DNA of 64,000 nucleotides from Rhizophagus irregularis (taxonomy: Eukaryota > Glomeromycota > Glomeromycetes > Glomerales > Glomeraceae): NCBI RefSeq assembly GCF_026210795.1, contig NC_089430.1, forward strand, positions 2,046,001 through 2,110,000. The letters run 5' to 3'. A program made the translations under genes and the position numbers. The notes beneath the pieces were generated by a model. That model saw only the letters and a program-made list of their open reading frames with translations, did not search any database and was not told the origin of the DNA. Shown here piece by piece: positions 28,103-49,600 of the stretch (positions within the stretch are counted from its first letter, which is position 1; every line of letters starts with the position of its first letter).

Positions 28103-30710
28103 ATGGATCCAACCCCAAGATTAAAACGATTAAAATCTAGTCCTATAATAATTTATTTCCTTCCTTTTAATAATAACGAAAATCATTGTAATTATTGTAA
28201 AACAAATTATTCCAAGACAATATTATTTAAACAAAAATATTGTGAGAAATGCTTTTTTAAGTATATTAAGGAAATAACTAAATATGACAAACCTATGATT
28301 AATATAATTAATGAGTATTTGAACGTATATAACGTATATACAAATGCAAACTGCGAGAATATTCGTTCGGATAATATCCAAGAATGGTTTAATGAATTCT
28401 CATATTTTGAACAAGTTGTTACAAATTATTCGTTCCATCCTATTGATATTAAAGAACAAAATAATTATAATATTATAATTGAAAATGAAAGTTATTGTAA
28501 ATTATGTAAGAAATCAATAATTTATCGGCAGAATGATCAAATTAATTTTAAACTATGTAAAAATTGCTATATAATTACTACTGATTTGATTGAATCATCA
28601 TTGACTAAAAAGCCTATCCAAATTATTTATTTACTATGGTGGGATGCTAATAGTCAATGTATGATATGCAAATTGGACTTAATGTTTATATCAGATTGTC
28701 AAAAAATATGCTCTTTTTGTTATCTAATTTATATTGGATGTAGGTATTGTTTGACAACCAATATTATTTTTGGAATTACAAATAAATCTCAATGCAAAAT
28801 ATGTGAAAGAACATCGGAAATTTCCATAAATATTGATTTTGATAATATCAATAGTGAAAATATTGATATTGAGAAATTCCTTATTTCTACAAGATCAAAT
28901 AATAAAAATAATAGTAAAATTGCAGATTATATAAATAATAAAAATTACGATAACCCATTAGATATATACAATTTTATTGAAAATAATCTTAAGAATACAC
29001 AAATAATGAGATGGATTCCATATTCTCAAATTAAAAATCTTGAAAAAATAGCAGAAGGAGGATTTGGTATTGTTTATAAAGCAACGTTGTTAGACGGTAG
29101 TAAATACAAACATGATGATTTTTTAAGTATTAGAAACAAAAATAAGCTTGTTGCCATTAAAAAGTTTCTAAATATACAAGATATAAGCAATGATTTTTTG
29201 AATGAGGCATGTCATATTCTATAATTTATTTTACTTGTCACTTATCAAATTTATCAAATTTATTTTAACATTAATTTTTTTTTTTTTAGTTAAATTCACT
29301 TCATCAGTGTTATAATAATCGTATAATTAAGTACTATGGTATTACAAAAGATCCAAAAACAAAAGAATATATGATTATAATGAATTATGCATCAGGAGGA
29401 GACTTACATAATTATTTACGGAAAAATTTTAATGATATTACGTGGGATAAGAAATTATATATTTTATGGCAAATTACAGAGGGGTACTTATATTTTTTTA
29501 ATATTATTATTTTTCAGGGCCAGAATTACGATAATGCCAGTGTTTTCTAAAAAAGGTAATAAAATTCTACTGGCATTATAAGTTATCCATAATTAATATG
29601 TTATCAATATTTTTTTTAATTTAGACTTAAATCTATTCACGAAAATGATTTTATACACCGAGATTTTCATAGTGGCAATATATTATGTGAAATAGAAACT
29701 ATTGGAAAATGGCAAATTGGTGATTTAGGGTTATCCCAACCTGCAAAAAATACTTCAATTAATAACGAAATTTATGGTGTTATACCTTATATTGCACCAG
29801 AAATATTTAGGGGTTTTGCTTTTTCAAAAGAATCCGATATTTATAGTATGGGTATGATCATGTGGGAACTAACAACAGGGTGTAAACCTTTTGCTTATAT
29901 TGAACATAACATTAACCTTATTTATAAAATTATTGATGGGGAACGACCTAAAATTACATGTGATACACCAGAATGTTATGCTAATTTAATGGAACGTTGC
30001 TGGGATCCTGATCCTTCAAAAAGGCTTTCCATAAAAGAGATTTGCGAAACTATTTATTCTTGGTCATTTAATTCATTTAAGGATGATGTTATTAGTGGTC
30101 AATTTAAGCAAGCCGAGAAAACCAGAGAAGAATTAATAAAATCAAAGAAAATTAGTCCTGAATTTAATGAAAGTTTGCATGCAAAAGCAATTTATACGAG
30201 TAGACCTTTAAGGTCTTTTATTTCTAAATCATCATTCATTAATTCACTATCAAAAAGTACTTATATATTATCATAGTTTACTATATATTTTTCATTTAAT
30301 TAATTAATGCTTTAATACTTTTATTCTATTAGGTGATAAGTTGCAACCATCGATTGGAAGCAATAAAGGTACTTTAATTCAAAAATATTTTTAATGATTA
30401 ATGTTAATTAACATTTTTCATTATTTGTTTATTAGAATATGTTACAAAAGAATACTTGCTTGATATAAATCATATTCAAAGGTACTTGTATGAATTTTTA
30501 TATTACATGAATTTAATTCACAAATTTAAACGCAATATATTATTTAGTAAAACATCGAGTTCACTGAATTCTTCAAGAAAACGTAATATTGAAGAATTAA
30601 CATCCGAAGTTCAGTGTAATGGTAATTATAATTGTATAATTAAGTCCAGTTTATGTGTTTTTTACGTTACTATTCTAATACAAAAAAAAAAAATTAGTAA
30701 AACAGGTTAA
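28103..30710 (+). CDS. Cys-rich TKL-like protein kinase (intact)
   Basis: Seven exons join in frame: 28103-29206, 29290-29483, 29625-30256, 30333-30368, 30436-30481, 30548-30621 and 30706-30710, predicting 696 residues. The first 290 residues hold four CxxC...CxxC pairs (CNYC/CEKC, CKLC/CKNC, CMIC/CSFC, CRYC/CKIC), each able to bind a zinc ion; this is inference. The kinase domain follows: AEGGFGIVYKA loop, lysine in VAIKKF, HRDFHSGN, DLG instead of DFG, APEIFRG, GMIMWELTTG. The tail is basic and Ser-rich. Intron 1 starts GCATGT, a GC..AG intron; the paralogue at 60594 has GT there. Intron 2 contains a small transposon remnant. Downstream small exons match those of the paralogues. Target and pathway are unknown. 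Reading through the last intron also reaches the same stop. Confidence 0.87.
29515..29588. mobile_element. AGGACC-family element remnant inside a kinase intron
   Basis: CAGGGCCAGAATTACGATAA, ATGCCAGTG, AAAAAAGGTAATAAAATTC and CTGGCATTATA match the family body at 17384 and 34087. It sits wholly inside intron 2 of the kinase, between donor 29484 and acceptor 29624. Terminal repeats are missing. Confidence 0.55.
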
Positions 30711-35165: not shown

Positions 35166-37274
35166 CTAAGAACCATCTAATTCATTTAATACATTTAATT
35201 CAAATTTGGTATAATAATTTTGCCCATTTACTTGATTAAATACTCTAGCTTTAATTTCCATATCACTAAATGATAAAGAAAATGAGCATGGTTTTTTATT
35301 TTCTATTTCTACATCGGGAAGATCAGTAAGTAATTTTCCAAGTAATTTCATGCCAGGTTCATCATCATCACAATAAATAGTATCTTCTTTTGTATAATAA
35401 ATATCAAAACTCATTCTTGTTTGATCTGAATAAATAGGAATTAAGTTTTCAACTTTAAATTCTTGATCAATTGTAACTGTAGATTTACGTTTTGCAATAC
35501 AATAAAATTTATGAATTCTTCCATCACTTTTACGTCTATCTATTGGATCTCCATATTCCCATAAAGGAGATATTCTAATTCCAAATGTATATTTTAATAC
35601 ACGAGTTGCAATAACACATTTTAAATTATTCATATTTTTCATATTCTTTGATTCTTGTAAACTTTTTCCATATATTGCTGCACCACGTAAAACTGCCGCA
35701 ATAGGTTGGTTCGGAATTGAGACATTTTCTACCAAGTCACTAAATTCTTCTTTAACTCTTTTTTGTAAATATTTTGATTGACTGAAACTTCCAACTAAAA
35801 ATATTGCTGAACATTTCTGAGAATTAATTAATTGAACATGAATCATTTTAATAATTCTATCAATAATAGGATCAAACAAAGATTTAACAGTTTTATAATT
35901 AAGATCAAGCATCCATTCTTTTATAAGCATTGAATCTCTCTCCGAACCAGTAATATATGGTAATAATTTAGGAGCTAATACTTCAAGATCTAACTCATAT
36001 TTACAATCTAGATTATCTCCTGTGAAATTTAACTTGACATCTTGACAAAAATTTTGAACCAAATAATGCAATTGACCATAATGCTCATTGATAAATGAAT
36101 TTATGGCTGAATTTCCAACTTCACGCTTTAGTAATTCTATAAATTCTTTATCAATAAAAGTACTTCCACAAAAGTCACCTGCCCGTACAGTGATTTCACC
36201 TAATTGGTATTCTTTCAATAATTTACGTGTTGTTAAATCTACCGTACCACCACCACAGTCAACAACCATGAAGTTTGCTTTATTAGTAAAGAATGAAATA
36301 ATATTTAGTATTTTAATATAAATTGTTTGATAAATACTTTAAACATACTTCCGGGTTTTGCAAGTTCATGTCTTTTTAGGTTGCTATGCATACAATAAAT
36401 TGCTGCAGCTTCAGCTATATTTATTTTAAAGAATAATTCTGTTAATATTTCATCATTAAAAACATAATAAAAATTAAACTTACGTTCAGTTACAAATTGT
36501 AATTTTTCTGAATGTATGTCACTTATCAAACCAGCATTGAATATACATTCTCTCATTATAGCCTTATCACTTTTTGAATATTCAGCTGGTACAGTAACAA
36601 TTAGAAGGACATTTTCCATAAACTTCACATGTATCCAGTACGATTCAACAGTTTTTTTGATTAGCTTTATTAATTAAAACGAATAAAATTAGTGATTATA
36701 GTATATTATATTATATTTAAATTAATTAAAATTTGTTTACCTTTCCAATTTCATGAAGATAATCAGTAATCACTTTTTTATAATTTAATGGTTCGGGCAA
36801 AACTGGCTTATACTTATCTAAACAATTACCTAAATATAATTTAAATAATTCTATTGGTCTTGTTTCATTATCTTTGCCTTTCTTATTTGGTTTTTTAAAT
36901 AAGGCTGGACGACCCCATAATTCAACTTCCTCAAAGCCATCTTTGTATTGAAGTACAGTATTTGTCCTCGATGCCCCCAGTTCATCACCAGGCCATTCAT
37001 GATTTACTTTGATACATCCGACATCTTTTTCCTCGCAATGATAATAAGAAAATCCCTATCAAAAATATATAAATATTTAATTTTATAGCCACATCTAATC
37101 TAATATAACATAATGAAACTACATTTACCGAATAAGTGGTTCCGAAATCTATTGTTTTAATATGTAAAATAATTAATTTAATACTAAAAAAAAAAAATTC
37201 AAATCAATATGTTTTAATTGCTATAACTATATATACCTAAACCAACCACAACACGAATATTGCTCCACGCCATA
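35166..37274 (-). CDS. HSPA12-like Hsp70-family ATPase
   Basis: Five exons (37274-37238, 37148-37129, 37055-36741, 36664-36349, 36277-35166) total exactly 600 codons, giving 599 residues with no stop. The actin/Hsp70 ATPase landmarks are present: phosphate-1 loop DFGTTYSG near residue 13, phosphate-2 VDCGGGTVDL near 233, and an adenosine loop FLVGSFSQSKYL near 395. Length and the early end after the ATPase fold fit the HSPA12 branch rather than canonical Hsp70, whose substrate-binding domain is not recognised here. A cytosolic role is expected; the client is unknown. Two introns end in AAG rather than CAG or TAG, which is weaker but keeps the frame. The second exon is only 20 bases. This family is very large in Rhizophagus. 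Confidence 0.87.
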
Positions 37275-38990: not shown

Positions 38991-39103
38991 CGGTTGATGG
39001 ATGGTGTGATCCTTTAGGAAGATCCATTTATGCATTTATAATAATTACCCCAAGTAAAAGGCAATATATTCATACTTTGAAAAATACATCAATATATTCT
39101 CAT

Positions 39104-39501
39104 TAGGGATGGCAATGGTCACGGTCATTAACCAGTTATGGCCGGTCATAGTTGTAACCAATATTGGTCAGTCAAAGACCTCTGACCGACTGTTTGACCG
39201 ACCATTTGACTGACCATTTAACTGATCCTAAAAATGTTTGCAAAACGTAATTTAATAAAAAAAATGTTTTGCAAACATTTTTTTAATTATTTTAATAGAA
39301 AACGTTGCGAAAATGTTTTTTATTAAGTATTTCAATTAAATTACATTTCGCAAACATTTTCAGGATCGGTTAACCGGTCAGTCAAATGGTCAGTTAACTG
39401 GTCGGTCAGACCGGTCAGTCAACAATCAGTCAGTTGGTCAAAGGTTCTTGACCGGCTATGACCGATCGATGACTGACCATGACCAACCATTGCCATCCCT
39501 A
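39104..39501. mobile_element. Non-autonomous hAT element 1, exact 8-bp target duplication
   Basis: The ends are TAGGGATGGCAATGGTCA and its inverted copy TGACCAACCATTGCCATCCC+TA. The exact 8-bp ATTCTCAT flanks both sides (39096-39103 and 39502-39509). The body is built from repeats of GGTCAGT-type words in both orientations around an A/T core with GCAAACATTTT inverted arms, so most of the element is one large imperfect palindrome. It interrupts the hAT relic just after its first block. No coding capacity. Confidence 0.9.
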
Positions 39502-39915
39502 ATTCTCATACCCTATGAAAATACAATTTCCATAAAATGTATGTAAAAAAATGTTATTTGACCATATATTATTCGAAAAATCATTATTTGTTTATAATTT
39601 AAACATAATTTTATTTGATATAATATTAAATATTCGTAAGTTGTATTGTAAACATAAACAAGCATTAACTTAACGTACAAATAATGTTCAAATAACATGT
39701 TTAAACATGCAATCATTACATAATAAGGTCAATTTCGTATAGTAAATTCCTATTGTAAAATTTATGACTTTTATTATTTCCTTTTATATTGTCATTTTTT
39801 GACAGGTTTGCTTGAATTATTATCTTTTCCAACATTTGTCTTTTTACAAGATGATCTACGAAATACAAAAATTTTGGTCATGTGACTTTGGCTTCGAAGT
39901 ATAGCCGGCAATCTT
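39502..39915. other. Spacer between two small elements
   Basis: No coding exon recognised. A 12-bp word ATAGCCGGCAAT ends at 39912 and returns as ATAGCCGACAAT just after the next element. Confidence 0.4.
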
Positions 39916-40124
39916 CCCCAGTATCACTGACACTTTTTCCATCCCACGTGATTTTGTAATATTCATCACCGGCATTACACCCCACCGCGTTTTCACTGTT
40001 TATATTTATCTGAGGGACTTAGTTTTTTTTTTGCCTCACAAAATTATTTTTTTCACATCCCTTTAAATTTTCACCGGTCACGTGGGGTGGAATTTTAATT
40101 ATAAAAGTGTCAGTGATACTGGGG
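39916..40124. mobile_element. 209-bp inverted-repeat element (CCCCAGTATCACTGAC family)
   Basis: Ends are perfect 22-base inverted repeats starting CCCCAGTATCACTGACAC. Inside are two CACGTG/CCCACGTG words, also roughly inverted. Related 12-bp words (ATAGCCGGCAAT, ATAGCCGACAAT) lie a few bases outside each end; they are not directly abutting, so a simple target duplication is not proved. Non-coding. Confidence 0.75.
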
Positions 40125-40195
40125 TAAATATAGCCGACAATGATTATCACGTATATATGTGATAATCTTTTTTAAACTTTTTTTTATTTAATTGA

Positions 40196-41280
40196 TACGG
40201 GTTTTAGATAAAGTTTCATTTCGCTTCGAAACTTTAAAAAAATGTTTTTAAAGCTTTCGCTTTGAAACTTCTATATTAAAAAAGAAATATTTTTTATTTT
40301 TTATTTTTTTTTCCTTTTATTTGTTTCAGCTTCAGTTCTTGGTGTTAGATAGGTGAGTTTCGAATAACACTTAATTGGAAACTTTGTAATTTTTTTTAAA
40401 AAAAATAATTTTAGTTTTTTTTCTATTTCGTAAGTCGTAAGTTTCGGCTTTGGTTCTTAGACTTTGGATAGGTGAGTTTCGAAGATTTTGCTCAAAACTT
40501 TTTTATTAAAAAAAAATTTATTTTTTTTTCTTTTTTTATTTTGTAGGTTTTAGCGGTTCTTGAGTGTTGGATAGGTGAGTTTCATTTCGAATAACACTTC
40601 GAAACATTTTTTTTTTTAAAAAAAATAATTTAATTAATTAATTTTTTTTTCTATTTTGTAGGTTTCATCTCTGATTCTTGGACATTGGATAGGTGAGTTT
40701 CGTTTTGAATAACACTCAAAACTATTTTTTTTAAAAAAAATAATTTAATTAATCTTTTTTTCTATTTTTGTAGGTTTGGCTCAAGTTTTTGGTGTTAGAT
40801 AGGTGAGTTTCGAATGATTTTTTTTTATTTTGTAGGTTTTCGCTTCGGTTCTTGGGTATTGGATAGGTGAATTTCATTTCGAACAACACTTTGAAACTTT
40901 ATTTTTTTTTTAAAAAAAAAATAATTTAATTTATCAATTTTTTTCTATTTTGTAGGTTTTAGCTCTGGTTCTTGGGCATTGGATAGGTGAGTTTCGTTTC
41001 AAATAAACCCTTCGAAACTATTTTTTTTAAAAAAAATAATTTAATTAATTAATCTTTTTTTCTATTTTGTAGGTTTTGGCTCCAGTTCTTGGTGTTAGAT
41101 AGGTGAGTTTCGAATAACACTTTGAAACTTTATTATTTTTAAAAAAAAAATTTAATAAATTTTTTTTTTCTATTTTGTAGATTTTGCTTCAGTTCTTGGG
41201 TGTTGGATAGGTAAGTTTCATTTTGAACAACACTTCGAAACTATTTTATTTTAAAAAAATTTAATTTATTAATTTTTTTA
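40196..41280 (+). repeat. Tandem array of nine splice-site-bounded micro-exon units
   Basis: Nine units, mostly 110-130 bases apart, each contain a T-rich tract ending TATTTTGTAG (3' splice-site consensus), a 23-31 base core with GGTTCTTGG and a TTGGATAG or TTAGATAG end, then GTGAGTTTCG (5' splice-site consensus). The cores are 40330-40352, 40442-40471, 40547-40574, 40662-40692, 40774-40802, 40836-40866, 40956-40986, 41073-41102 and 41181-41210. Between cores lie AACACTTCGAAAC, an A-run and TTAATTAATT. Only unit two has a poor acceptor (CGTAAG); unit six has GTGAAT and unit nine GTAAGT as donors. A partial unit precedes the first. Whether it is transcribed and spliced cannot be told from sequence. 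Confidence 0.85.
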
Positions 41281-41287
41281 TGGACAG

Positions 41288-41407
41288 GTTGAATATCATC
41301 TTGCTTACGAACTTGATAAAGTAACTTATATGTTGGAAGTGCATGAATTCATTGATGCGTTTGCTATAGACCATTGTCCATTGTGTAGATTAAAACGTGA
41401 TAGATAA
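41288..41407 (+). CDS. Possible terminal exon after the micro-exon array
   Basis: After an acceptor-like ATGGACAG, a 39-codon open stretch reads VEYHLAYELDKVTYMLEVHE, then FIDAFAIDHCPLCRLKRDR and a TAA. It has ordinary composition and a CPLC motif, unlike the surrounding DNA. It could be the last exon of a transcript using the array, or a remnant. No family recognised. Confidence 0.3.
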   Translation, partial: VEYHLAYELDKVTYMLEVHEFIDAFAIDHCPLCRLKRDR

Positions 41408-41453
41408 GGATGTAGACTATACGGGTGATGAATAATAGAATGGGTTATATATA

Positions 41454-41649
41454 CAGTCAAAGCTCGTTATAGTGAATCTCGTTATAGTGAACATTAAGTA
41501 AAATCGCGTTATAGTGACCTATTGATTTTTTTTCCTTATAATTAATTTTTCTCGATATAGTGAATTTTCTTAATAAATCTCGTTATAGTGAAAAAAAGGG
41601 AAAAAATTACATAGTGGAATGGAAAGTTCACTATAACGAGCTTTGACTG
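41454..41649. mobile_element. Pogo/Tigger-like small element with TA flanks
   Basis: Ends CAGTCAAAGCTCGTTATAG and its exact inverted copy form about 24-base terminal repeats; TA flanks at 41452-41453 and 41650-41651. The word CTCGTTATAGTGAA recurs inside. The CAGTCAAA start and TA target fit the pogo/Tigger group by family knowledge. Non-coding, 196 bases. Confidence 0.85.
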
Positions 41650-42332
41650 TATACTACTAGTGAATAGTACATTTAATAAGCAAATAATTTACATTTAGAT
41701 TACAAACATAAAACGGATGGGCTCATTTTTCCGTATATTTAACATTTAAAATACATATATAAAATGGTTAATTATTAGACATCTATATAACCATTATTTA
41801 TCAATTATTTACTATTACATTTTACGGACAATTAATTTTTATAGGGATATTGGAGCCTTTAATGCTACTGATATTAAAAAGGTTTTGACTTCAATTGATC
41901 CAGAGAAAATGTGGCTATAGTATCAGATGCTGAGGCAGCTATGCAAATGGCAAGAAGATTAATTACTGAAAAGTACCCTTATATTTTATCTATACGTTGC
42001 ATGGCACACCATTTAAATCTAATAACAAGTGATATTATCAAATTGGGTTTTGCAAAAAATATATTAAAAAATGCCAATCTATTGTAACTTTTTTTAAAAC
42101 ATCATATTGTGCAGTAAATATCTTCAAAATAATATTATTCAAACTTTAACAAAAGGAGGTGGTCTTAAAATATCAGTAAAAAACAAGATGGTCTACTGCA
42201 TGGGATTGTTTTGACTCAATTATCTGTTTAGAAAATAATCTCAAGAATGTAAGTTAACAAATAATGATACATTTAACAATAAACTAAAAATTAATTAATT
42301 ATTTAATTAATTATAATTTAGGTTCTTGAAAC

Positions 42333-42750
42333 TAGGGATGGCAATGTTTATGGTCATAACCGGTCATGACCGGTTAATAACTGTGACCAATATCGGTTGG
42401 TCAAAGGCTTTGACCAACCATTTAACTGACCATTTTTGACTGACCATTTGACTGACTGTTTAACTGACCATTTAAATGATTGTTAACTGACCATTTAATC
42501 AAACCTATTCATTTAACACTTTTTTTATAAACTTAATCAATAAAAAAAGTTGGTTAACATTTTTGTTAGCAGGTTTAATCAAAAAAAAATACTTTTTAAC
42601 GTTTTTTCTTAATTAAATTCACTAAAAAAATGGTTAAACAGTCAGTTAAATGGTCAGAAAAATGGTCAGCCAAAATGGTCAATTGGTCAAAGACCCATAA
42701 CCGGTTATGACCAACTGATAACCGACCATGACTGACCATTGCCATCCCTA
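42333..42750. mobile_element. Non-autonomous hAT element 2, exact 8-bp target duplication
   Basis: Ends TAGGGATGGCAATG and CATTGCCATCCCTA are inverted. The exact 8-bp CTTGAAAC flanks both sides (42325-42332 and 42751-42758). The body is again repeats of ACTGACCATTT-type words, with inverted halves. It splits an exon of the hAT relic: removing the element and one flank restores a sensible reading V-L-E-T-Q-P-E-I across the site. Same family as element 1. Confidence 0.9.
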
Positions 42751-43939
42751 CTTGAAACTCAACCTGAAATTGTTATTAATGCAATTGCAATAAAAATATT
42801 CTTCAAAATCGCCAATTTTTTCAAAATATTGAACAACTTCAAGCAATTCTTGCACCTGCTAAAAAAGCAATTCAAGCTGTTGAAGCTAATTCAAGTAATA
42901 TGGCTTTAATTTTTTTGGAATTAATTCAAGATGGCAGTTGCAATTAGACTAATTTAAATTATCTTTGATCTGAATTTCAAAAAAAAATTGTATTAATATA
43001 TTTAATAAATGTTGGGCACAGTTTGATACTGATATATATCTTGTTGACTTTTTTTTTCATTAAAACATAGGGGTAAAGTTGGTTATTATTTTGTTTAATT
43101 TTACTAATTATATATGATATGTTTATTATTCATATTTTTCACATTAGAAAAGAAATTTCAAGACAGTACATTCCATTAACAGCTATAATAATTTGGTCAA
43201 AGGTAATAAAGAAAATTGCAGAATTTTATTATTACTACTTCGGTCATATAGTGATGGTGAGCCGCCTTATGATATGGAATATACTGATGATTATGATATA
43301 CCTGAACTTTGGTAGTCAACATGTCAACAGCCAAATAATTATATCCAGAAATTAGCTTTAAAGTTATTTGCTATTACTCCTCATTAAGCTGCATGCAAAT
43401 GAGCCTTTTCAGTATTAAATTGGATGATAGAAAAGCAGAGAACAAGATGTTATATAATTTTTTAATAATAATAATAATAATACAATATTATATTAATAAT
43501 TTTATCTTTTTTAGGTTAGATATTGATCAAATTCAATCTATGGCCCAGATGCACTTGTACTACATCACAAATGCAAAAACAGAGTTAAAATTTTCTAGTA
43601 GTGGTTTAAATGAAAATGAGCTTGAAACTGCATTACAAGAAATTACTGCAGCTATGATTAATAACAATGATCTTTTCATTGATGATGATGATGATGATAC
43701 TGTTTCAGATAATGAAAGTATTAATTTGAATGAAGATAATACTAATAGTGATTTAATTATGGAAAATACTATGAAATTAGATAAATTTAATGAACTAAAT
43801 AGGGATAATTCAAATTCAGATATTTTGGACCAACGACCTGATGAATCTATATATTATGAGGATTCAAATATTGATTTTGAAGCAATATTTGATGAGGAAT
43901 CAGAAATAAATCAGTAGATGATGTTATGAAGGATAATTT

Positions 43940-46652: not shown

Positions 46653-49600
46653 CAGTGTTGTGAAGTGATATTAAATGACACAAATGACATTAGTGACATG
46701 TCACGTATCATTATGTCATTTCAGTGAGTAAATGACAATATTATGTCATTTGAAATTATGTCATGTGAGCTGTAATGCCGGCCAAAATTATTTAATATAA
46801 TAAATCTTTATTATAGCGTATTATTTAATAAAAGTAAAAATTACTTAATCACAAATTCACAATTTATTATTAAAACATATTAACTGGAGCTTCTAAAGTC
46901 TCATTAAACAAATCAAGTAACTTCCATTTAGCCAATGGATTATCTGCTGGATGAATACTTTGTCCACCTATTTCAAATTCATATGTTTCTTCGCCTATAA
47001 CTTCTGTATTATTTATATTAATTTCTGCATTAACCATTTTAATCCAATCTTCAATTATTTTAGTCCATTGTTCAGAATTAATATTATCACTATTATTAGT
47101 TTTTTCAAAGGTATCATTAACATTACATTCATCAATAACAGAAGTTTCTTCTAGTTCTTCAGTATCACTATCGTTAAAAGCATTAAATGTGAACTCATTA
47201 TCATTTGTGTCTTCTTCATCTGATTGGTATTCTTGGATTGGTTCAGCAATATGTAATCGTTTATATTGTCGTTCAGAAATTTCTATATCATCACGTTTTC
47301 TTTTACATAATATATCACTTCGCAATTGAGCCATAGCCAAAACTTTCTTATGCTACAAAATTAAAAATGTATAATCTTTTGTTAATGTGATTTTGCATAA
47401 TATAAATTTTGGTAAAATACACTTACATGTAATTTATTTCGGCGGGTTGAATGTAAAAAACCCATATTTGACCAAAGACGTTCCACTGAAGCTGCATTAA
47501 CGCAGATCCCAAAAAGATGTAAAGCTAATTTTGAGAGTTCAGGTGCCAATCCTTTGGCAGATTCCCAGAAATCAATAATATTTTCTTCAAACTGATTATA
47601 AGTTTCAGAATTAAAAGGAAAAAGCTCACGTTGATATGATAAATAATCACGAAGGATTCTTTTTGGTGTTTCATTAAACCATGCTTGATAGTAATATATA
47701 AGCCATTGTCCAAAATGTGTATAAGAAATATTTTTAGCAGAAGAATTAAATTTTGAAACTCGATATTTTGGATGAAGAACAATTGAAAGTAATAGTAATG
47801 GCTGTTCCCACTGTGCCCAGCGTGATTCTAATCTTGCTATCATGCAATTACCAAATTCTACGTTTTTGTGAGAAGAAAATATTTTAATTATCCAACCAAA
47901 GCAGTGTGCAATTTCATATAGGCGCGCAATATCCTTTTGTAATTTATTTAATGCGCTGCATATTGGTAATAATAAATTTTGAAGTTCAAATAGTTGGATC
48001 CAAAATTCTGGATCATTAATAATTTCAATTATGTCTGAAGGGAGACATTTGTTTTCATTATTTGAATTAGTTCTATAACGTTGACGAGATACTCCAGCTC
48101 GAGAAGTACTTGGAGTTCCAATACGTTCAGGAGAGCATTTTGTTATTAAAGTCTAAAAAAATTAATAAAACAGGTATAAAAATTTTATTTATTGATTTAT
48201 TGAGCAACTTGCCAAAATTATAATTCTCACCTTTAATGCTGCTTCTGTTTTTAAAATACTGTGAAAACAAAAGTAGTAACTATTCCAGCGTGTTTCCCCT
48301 GGAGTTATCAATGCTATTGTTTGACCATAGCATGAAGTTTGTTCATTTCTTAACAATCCAGTGAAATAAGGAGAGGAGTGAAAATAACTAACAATACGAA
48401 CTGCATTTTTTGATACTTGCTTGTATTGAAGTGATTCTTTAAAAATATCTCCTACAACCAAATTCATCTGATGGGCCATACAAGGTAAAAATACCTTACT
48501 TGGATATTCTACTCTTAATTGACGTCTAAAAAAGCAAAAAATTAAGATTTTATTAATAATATTCTATACCATAAAATATATAATATAAAATTGTACTCAC
48601 CTTGCTGCAGCATATTCTCCAGCTGAATCAGAAACAAAACAATTGATTTTTATTTGTTTCAATTCGGCATTATTCATCAAATTTTTAATTAACATTTTAA
48701 CATCTTCAGTTTTAGATCGTTGATCACTAATATCCTTAGCTCCCCAAATTAGTGTTTTACCAGATGAAGTAATAAGTACAACCCCAAAAAGATGTTCTTG
48801 TTTAACATTTGTCCAGCCGTCAAAAGCTGCAGTAACACCAATTGCATCACCTTTTGCCTGCTCTACAATTGATATAGATAGTTGGTTTGCAGATTTAGAA
48901 AGAATACGATTACTGATGGCATGACGTCCTGGAAGTTTCAATGCTGGAGCAATAAATCTAAAAACTTCTTGTGTTTCTTTATTTTCCAGAAATGTAAATG
49001 ATAAACCATTTGATACCATCATTAGTAATACCAGATTTTCAAAATGAGGAATGTCTTTCTTAGAAAATGGCCGGGATACATATCCTGATAAGGTTGATTG
49101 TTTAATAATTGAATTAGATGGTGCAGCAGTTGTAGATTTATCAGTTTCCATCTCACTTTCATTTATTATTGCTTGTGTTTTATTTTTTTTCTCATCTTCA
49201 GGTACTTTACGTGATAAAATTTCTTCTCTTTCACTCTCATGATATTCATGAGCAAAATTTTCACATTTTTTCAGATGATTACGGCATAATAATGCTTTAT
49301 TAGATACGAAACATTCAGGTTTAGAAATAGCAATAGGTAAAGTATGTTTTCTTATACAAGAAAAACACACTGCTTTTTTATTTGCTTTAGGATTATCTGG
49401 TGTACATAAATAAAAAAATTCACGAAAATTATGCTTTTCTTTCATTTTAATTTTATACAAACTCGTATATATTGAAATAAGAAATTTGTTATGAAAAATA
49501 ATGACGAAACGCGAGAATCACAAAAAAGATCGATAAATCTTAGATTTAACAAACAAATAATAATAAATTGTTAAATTTCCAGATTAAATAAATATCACAC

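Follow-up and report, generated by a model that had tools for sequence, protein, structure and literature searches.

Do rows of very short, splice-flanked units in a fungal genome represent exons, or do they merely resemble them? The question is raised by a tandem array in Rhizophagus irregularis, an arbuscular mycorrhizal fungus, within a stretch of 64,000 nucleotides (NC_089430.1, positions 2,046,001 to 2,110,000; hereafter the window). The original prediction described each unit as a candidate micro-exon with its own splice sites. Following the array through its immediate surroundings, its copies elsewhere in the genome and its substitution patterns, we conclude, with a probability of roughly 0.7, that a non-autonomous CACTA/EnSpm-type transposon carries it as its internal cassette, a passive filling that most likely has no role for the host.

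A row of nine splice-flanked units

The array was confirmed as nine units of about 115 bp (Table 1), which Tandem Repeats Finder reports in two rows, one with a period of 115 at 40389-40812 (score 375) and one with a period of 120 at 40813-41273 (score 494). The anticipated succession of T-rich acceptor, core of 23-31 bases and GTGAGT-like donor was borne out, with GTRAGT-like donors in 9/9 units (GTGAGT in seven, GTGAAT in one and GTAAGT in one) and AG acceptors in 8/9. The donors of units 1-9 start at 40353, 40472, 40575, 40693, 40803, 40867, 40987, 41103 and 41211. The acceptor reads TTTGTTTCAG in unit 1 and TATTTTGTAG in seven units, one of them with an extra T; in unit 2, where a script-based search gave no acceptor, the core start was placed by alignment. 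Core lengths in units 1-9 are 23, 31, 28, 31, 29, 31, 31, 30 and 30.

From each donor to the next acceptor the distances are, in order, 88, 75, 87, 81, 33, 89, 86, 78 and 77, that is, 75-89 bases in 8/9 spacers and 33 in the ninth. As a rule of thumb, the 33 bases that separate unit 5 from unit 6 probably fall below a workable intron size. Frame junctions of a hAT-like gene elsewhere in the window reveal two introns of 75 and 78 bases, which start with GTGAGT and GTGAGA and end with TTTTTTAG. Since both the spacer lengths and the borders of the array match these two introns, its likeness to introns is not fanciful.

The hAT-like transposase gene itself lies at 47382-49517 on the minus strand, with two short introns, a PF05699 hAT dimerisation match (E 1.4e-7) and a DUF659 match below the cut-off. 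The window also holds a protein kinase frame at 29620-30276 (PF00069, E 2.8e-25) and minus-strand frames at 35166-37055 that look Hsp70-like by eye (VVDCGGGTVD); a Pfam search of one piece of the latter, 35166-36338, gave no match at E 0.01.

Table 1. Features of the array and its container, in window positions.
Feature	Position	Strand	Description
Non-autonomous CACTA/EnSpm-type transposon holding the array	39511..41846	+	CCCTAT...ATAGGG ends, target duplication ata
5' part common to the window element and L015	39511..39862	+	352 bp, 86%
Cassette foreign to L015: leader and tandem array, split by nested insertion	39863..41280	+	L015 matches at most short, weak and AT-rich
Nested short insertion, inverted ends	39905..40138	.	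gap in alignments of all five near-identical copies; empty site in L001
Nine tandem units	40311..41280	+	T-rich acceptor, core of 23-31 bases, GTRAGT-like donor, spacer of 33-89 bases
Transposase C-terminal relic	41281..41407	+	GQVEYHLAYELDKVTYML / HEFIDAFAIDHC, then rearranged sequence
Nested short insertion, CAGTCAAAGCTCGTTATAGTGAA inverted ends, TA target	41453..41650	.	present in the window and L001; absent in L003, L004 and L005; empty site visible in L003
3' end common to the window element and L015	41662..41846	+	185 bp, 95%

The array is contained in a deleted transposon

The limits of the element that holds the array are recurrent in blastn comparisons with copies on contigs 3 and 8, and its terminal inverted repeat is imperfect, matching over about 45 bp. 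Target-site duplications of 3 bp were found in 8/8 copies with both ends located (ata in the window, ctt in L001, cgg in L003, cta in L004, tag in L005, aag in L013, ttc in L015 and ata in L016), a count that excludes L002, L006, L008-L010 and further copies in which at most one end was located. Unit number differs even among near-identical copies, with 9, 9, 9, 12 and 7 units in L001-L005.

A longer relative, L015, measures 5641 bp, is 98.6% identical to L016 and has the same CCCTAT...ATAGGG ends. It shares both outer parts of the window element and matches the intervening cassette at most in short, weak, AT-rich stretches. The transposase frame was read in a locus overlapping L015, namely L008, where it matches Transposase family tnp2 (PF02992; E 9.9e-11, 41.7 bits against a cut-off of 28.6), and a profile of the window's units found none at E 0.01 in L008-L010, L015 and L016. 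Given the ends in common with L015, the tnp2 transposase of this relative and its lack of units, the window element is, judging from these alignments, a deletion derivative that carries a foreign filling. The name CACTA/EnSpm-type is based on transposase and duplication and does not denote a CACTA element in the narrow sense, since the ends read CCCTAT and show no CACTA or CAC terminal motif.

Close to the element, at 39098-39501 and about 42333-42752, we also noted by eye two stretches that are bounded by GGGATGGCAATG...CATTGCCATCCC and enclose short repeats of the TGACC type.

The apparent terminal exon is a transposase relic

According to the original prediction, the array ends at an acceptor-like ATGGACAG followed by a 39-codon open exon with a CPLC motif. 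Here the comparison with relatives led to another reading. The C-terminal transposase frame of L008 can be aligned with the window from 41282 onwards as GQVEY..DKVTYML, a 22-residue gap and then HEFIDAFAIDHC (28/54 identities, 22 gap positions, E 2e-15), so the open exon is better described as a deleted transposase relic; a Pfam search of 41288-41404 gave no match at E 0.01. The acceptor-like letters are inherited coding sequence as well, since L015 has TTTTATGGACAGGTT there, which encodes F-Y-G-Q-V within an open frame; from its letters, ATGGACAG could still serve as an acceptor despite this ancestry. Nor is CPLC a conserved motif, as it begins at about the last homologous residue, a cysteine, and continues into rearranged sequence.

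The unit recurs in several repeat families

Compared with its own genome (146.7 Mb, 32 contigs), the array gave at least 119 matches, 40 of 157 candidates having been scored. We examined 39 loci, which are the stronger array-match places and not every one, and a profile search of these recovered 456 units: 88 in 13 loci of set A, 179 in 7 of set B, 133 in 11 of set B2 and 56 in 8 of set C. These set names are our own; A comprises the window family plus two further loci, L030 and L036, and B2 is a mixed, unclassified group of array loci.

Seven copies of a repeat some 4.8 kb long make up family B, and their flanks are 96-99% identical. Its 5' end starts with TTAGCG, not TC, and at its 3' end the hairpin GGGGGACGAAGTCCCCC is present in 7/7 copies and CTAG followed by TT in 6/7; judged by this hairpin and 3' end, the family is Helitron-like. 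Copies of family C have at least 3.3 kb in common within the 4-kb stretches fetched, and their long, internally repeated inverted ends are the reason for calling them foldback-type. Judged by these matches, the splice-flanked unit is present in at least three repeat families. The guess that the array is a selfish intron-exon amplicon comes close, as mobile DNA carries the array and amplified copies of the unit occur at the 39 loci examined and in three or more families.

Families A and C also have the pre-array leader in common, at 68-70% identity. This leader recurs in L059, where it stands with two units and is preceded by some 518 bp from the 5' end of the transposase element. A leader pattern search of the genome returned two exact matches, both family-A copies, and was uninformative. 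Relative to the transposase relic or 5' end, the units run in the same direction in 13/13 family-A loci with both parts read (the window, L001-L007, L011-L014 and L059), and one weak opposite unit match (15.9 bits) lies outside the array in L013. One single capture may account for this agreement.

A separate repeat of about 454 bp with many near-identical genome copies occupies about 430-885 of L017; by eye, CCAGCATATTATAATATTT stands on both of its flanks.

Conservation is block-wide and the splice sites are mostly intact

In the profile consensus, TCTATTTTGTAG is followed by a core some 31 bases long, by GTRAGTTTCG..CGAAACT and finally by runs of T and of A. Of the 432 scored units, 353 retain both AG and GT (A 62/77, B 154/173, B2 98/126, C 39/56), a proportion biased towards intact units because the unit-finding profile contains the splice columns, and from which 24/456 units with a gap at a border column were dropped. 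The core and splice signals had been described as better conserved than the spacer. This is true for length but not for substitutions among near-identical copies: summed over five copies of the window element, changes number 38/1247 in cores and 27/1897 in spacer interiors, compared with 3/258 in donors, 9/409 in acceptors, and 40/2237 and 38/1581 in two non-array flanks. With the core no slower than the spacer, the uniform divergence that the original prediction had set as its own refuting condition speaks against selection on the core in the window family, and purifying selection there was rejected.

Such uniform divergence, together with the array shape, the changing unit number and conservation that is block-wide rather than splice-specific, would fit a plain satellite or minisatellite seeded within transposons, with a splice likeness that is accidental and favoured by an AT-rich genome and T-runs before AG. 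This is the least unlikely of the alternatives, but a T-rich acceptor and a GTRAGT donor lie 23-36 bases apart in most units of the four sets, and the spacer length equals that of real introns. Accident in every set is unlikely, although the sets share ancestry.

Constraint on the splice sites themselves was assessed column by column. Among the 34 G/C columns of family B, the splice Gs are the three that mutate least, whereas they rank 1/8/12 of 33 in A, 2/6/8 of 30 in B2 and 1/5/11 of 29 in C. Without CpG, splice Gs changed in 3/185 comparisons versus 61/1063 in one B-locus pairing (p 0.017), with p 0.39 and 0.07 in two other B-locus pairings; the corresponding counts are 1/51 versus 11/334 in A and 2/62 versus 17/385 in C (both p 1), 6/65 versus 86/355 in B2 (p 0.005), and 3/24 versus 28/139 in a diverged family-A pairing (p 0.57). 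Pooled without CpG, they changed in 12/363 comparisons (odds ratio 0.35, p 7e-4), in a test of non-independent pairs that includes the first B pairing only and excludes the two other B pairings and the diverged A pairing. Donor position +3 changes more freely (12/90 versus 12/363, p 6e-4). By column, the splice Gs changed in 4.2, 4.1 and 1.6%, alongside 3.0% at core position ex13, 1.9% at ex20, 2.0% at ex27 and 1.3% at int+23, and the non-splice G at acceptor -4 does not differ from the splice Gs (p 0.56). A splice-specific constraint is at best suggested, the Gs being conserved but not clearly beyond other Gs of the block. We conclude that the whole block is alike by ancestry, and that some selection specific to splicing is possible in view of the family-B splice Gs, the pooled odds ratio and the proportion of intact borders.

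The same observations bear on the idea of a functional splicing module, in which serial splicing through mini-exons would protect the element's RNA, for example against RNAi that senses stalled spliceosomes, or would remove the element from host transcripts. The intact AG and GT, the slow splice Gs, the freer donor +3, the presence of one unit in unrelated repeat families and its transposase sense in all family-A loci read would agree with such a function. We nevertheless consider it unlikely, since two of the three B pairings and the A and C sets are individually non-significant, several core Gs and int+23 are as slow as the splice Gs, the acceptor -4 G is no different, and the common orientation may stem from one capture. 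The broader version, that leader and mini-exon array form a mobile splicing module acquired by several unrelated mobile elements, whose transcripts would be aided by serial splicing (through escape from RNAi that senses poor introns, for example, or less damage inside genes), seems to us improbable.

Other forms of constraint were considered within the same columns. In B, a mutation at +9 is seldom accompanied by one at the neighbouring +10 (p 1.8e-4; p is 0.05 in B2 and 0.22 in A), and in C the association runs the opposite way (p 0.04); the strong B signal is as CpG decay predicts. CpG sites changed in 14-17% of B comparisons versus 3-7% for other core G/C sites. They are also the faster sites in A and in C, and hardly so in B2 (31/132 versus 48/230). 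For R. irregularis, CpG methylation at transposons and transposon silencing by small RNAs and DNA methylation are reported in PMC8647823. An RNA hairpin kept by covariation found no support, as the pairing is mostly without paired changes: the +9/+27 association has p 0.013 in B2 and is not significant in the other three sets, and no +10/+26 association is significant in any of the four. Known RNA families gave no match on 39500-41900 up to E 1, and spliced-leader genes were dropped as a candidate since the cores vary and sit after an acceptor.

Most cores keep no reading frame

Core lengths leave remainders of 0/1/2 modulo three in 17/51/9 cases in A, 56/60/57 in B, 62/27/37 in B2 and 0/32/24 in C, so that 17/77 are divisible by three in the window family and 62/126 in B2. 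Joined cores of the window copy, read in each frame in turn, contain 5, 3 and 5 stops, and the nine cores with the relic allow at most 52 stop-free codons. Compared at the 5% level with shuffled exon orders, the joined-core frame had no excess length at any of the 39 loci, a control that is blind to frames common to every core. Compared with base-shuffled cores, a lack of stops was absent in 28/28 A, B and C loci (13 A, 7 B, 8 C), with all fractions above 0.05 and the lowest at 0.153. With no frame kept and no lack of stops, coding exons were rejected for these three sets.

In B2, joined cores are stop-free in one frame at 4/11 loci, and the fraction of base-shuffled cores with as few stops is 0.047 for L022, 0.013 for L023, 0.17 for L028 and 0.05 for L035. 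L025 has four stops, still few (0.027), so that 4/11 B2 loci (L022, L023, L025 and L035) lie at or below 0.05, uncorrected for 39 loci. The stop-free frames carry repeats such as GFRFLG (e.g., GFRFLGVGYM). L022 and L023 are hardly two cases, as they match each other closely and have similar joined frames. That the cores encode a repeat protein varied by alternative splicing is hardly credible, even with these stop-free frames, which are why we leave it a small non-zero weight, with the many B2 lengths in multiples of three and with SP7 effectors of R. irregularis being repeat proteins (PMC11333574), since the low fractions are uncorrected and partly duplicated, two frames of the same DNA occur within a single product, and A, B and C neither keep a frame nor lack stops.

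Retro-copies with joined cores, sought with one pattern that gave 26 matches, were also rejected; the best match, with one mismatch at C1:680039, lies inside array L055, in a T-rich tract, and reads as an acceptor variant.

A probable passive cassette in selfish DNA

The array is best read as part of a repeat cassette that several repeat families have in common, in which it would hitchhike with splice sites that look competent. Comparison with L015 and L059 shows that most of the tnp2 transposase gene of an ancestral element was lost and that the leader-plus-array cassette came between the 5' end of this element and the last transposase part; the capture of the cassette, and the order of gene loss and cassette arrival, are steps that we infer. 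The window element presumably spread by means of transposase made elsewhere, and slippage or unequal exchange presumably produced the variation from 7 to 12 units. The same unit also resides in the Helitron-like and foldback-type families. As 8/9 spacers measure 75-89 bases, compared with 75 and 78 for the hAT-like introns, the splice-like borders probably descend from a real exon-intron segment, and sense transcription of the element, if it occurs, may make them usable. The role of the cassette in this selfish DNA would be passive.

A class of splice-flanked tandem repeats is thereby linked to several mobile repeat families in an arbuscular mycorrhizal fungus. Gene prediction could invent many-exon genes at such arrays, and the arrays offer a concrete case for asking if transposons gain from carrying introns. 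If spliced, they would be a natural test object for serial splicing in a fungus.

Comparison with known systems

Satellites can be seeded by tandem repeats that lie inside Helitron-type and other elements. The array resembles Helitron-type internal repeats in having tandem units copied within mobile DNA in variable number, but differs in the splice-like borders of each unit and in the occurrence of the same unit in several repeat families. Non-autonomous CACTA/EnSpm (CMC) elements and those of the fungal Plavaka lineage are like the window element in their inverted ends, 3-bp duplications, tnp2-type transposase (here in the relative) and internal deletion, and unlike it in their filling, which here is a splice-flanked tandem array. 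Target duplications of 2 or 3 bp in PlavakaB and 3 bp in EnSpm are given in PMC12730594, and Plavaka is described as prevalent in R. irregularis in PMC11075540. Compared by terminal motif, the CCCTAT...ATAGGG ends differ from Plavaka's CATCA..TGATG or TGT..ACA and from CAC..GTG, the motifs listed in PMC12730594.

Introners, as portrayed in PMC9860276, are also mobile DNA with competent-looking splice sites. However, each of them enters a gene as a single insertion and is removed by splicing, whereas the splice-like borders described here are in tandem inside a larger transposon; the terms "Rhizophagus" and "Glomero" are absent from the main text of that paper. The titles and abstract openings of the literature searched contained no description of splice-flanked tandem arrays of this kind. 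Micro-exon genes of parasitic worms likewise have many tiny exons in a row. Their micro-exons keep frame and code for protein, whereas the cores of the window family do neither, in line with the small share of their lengths divisible by three.
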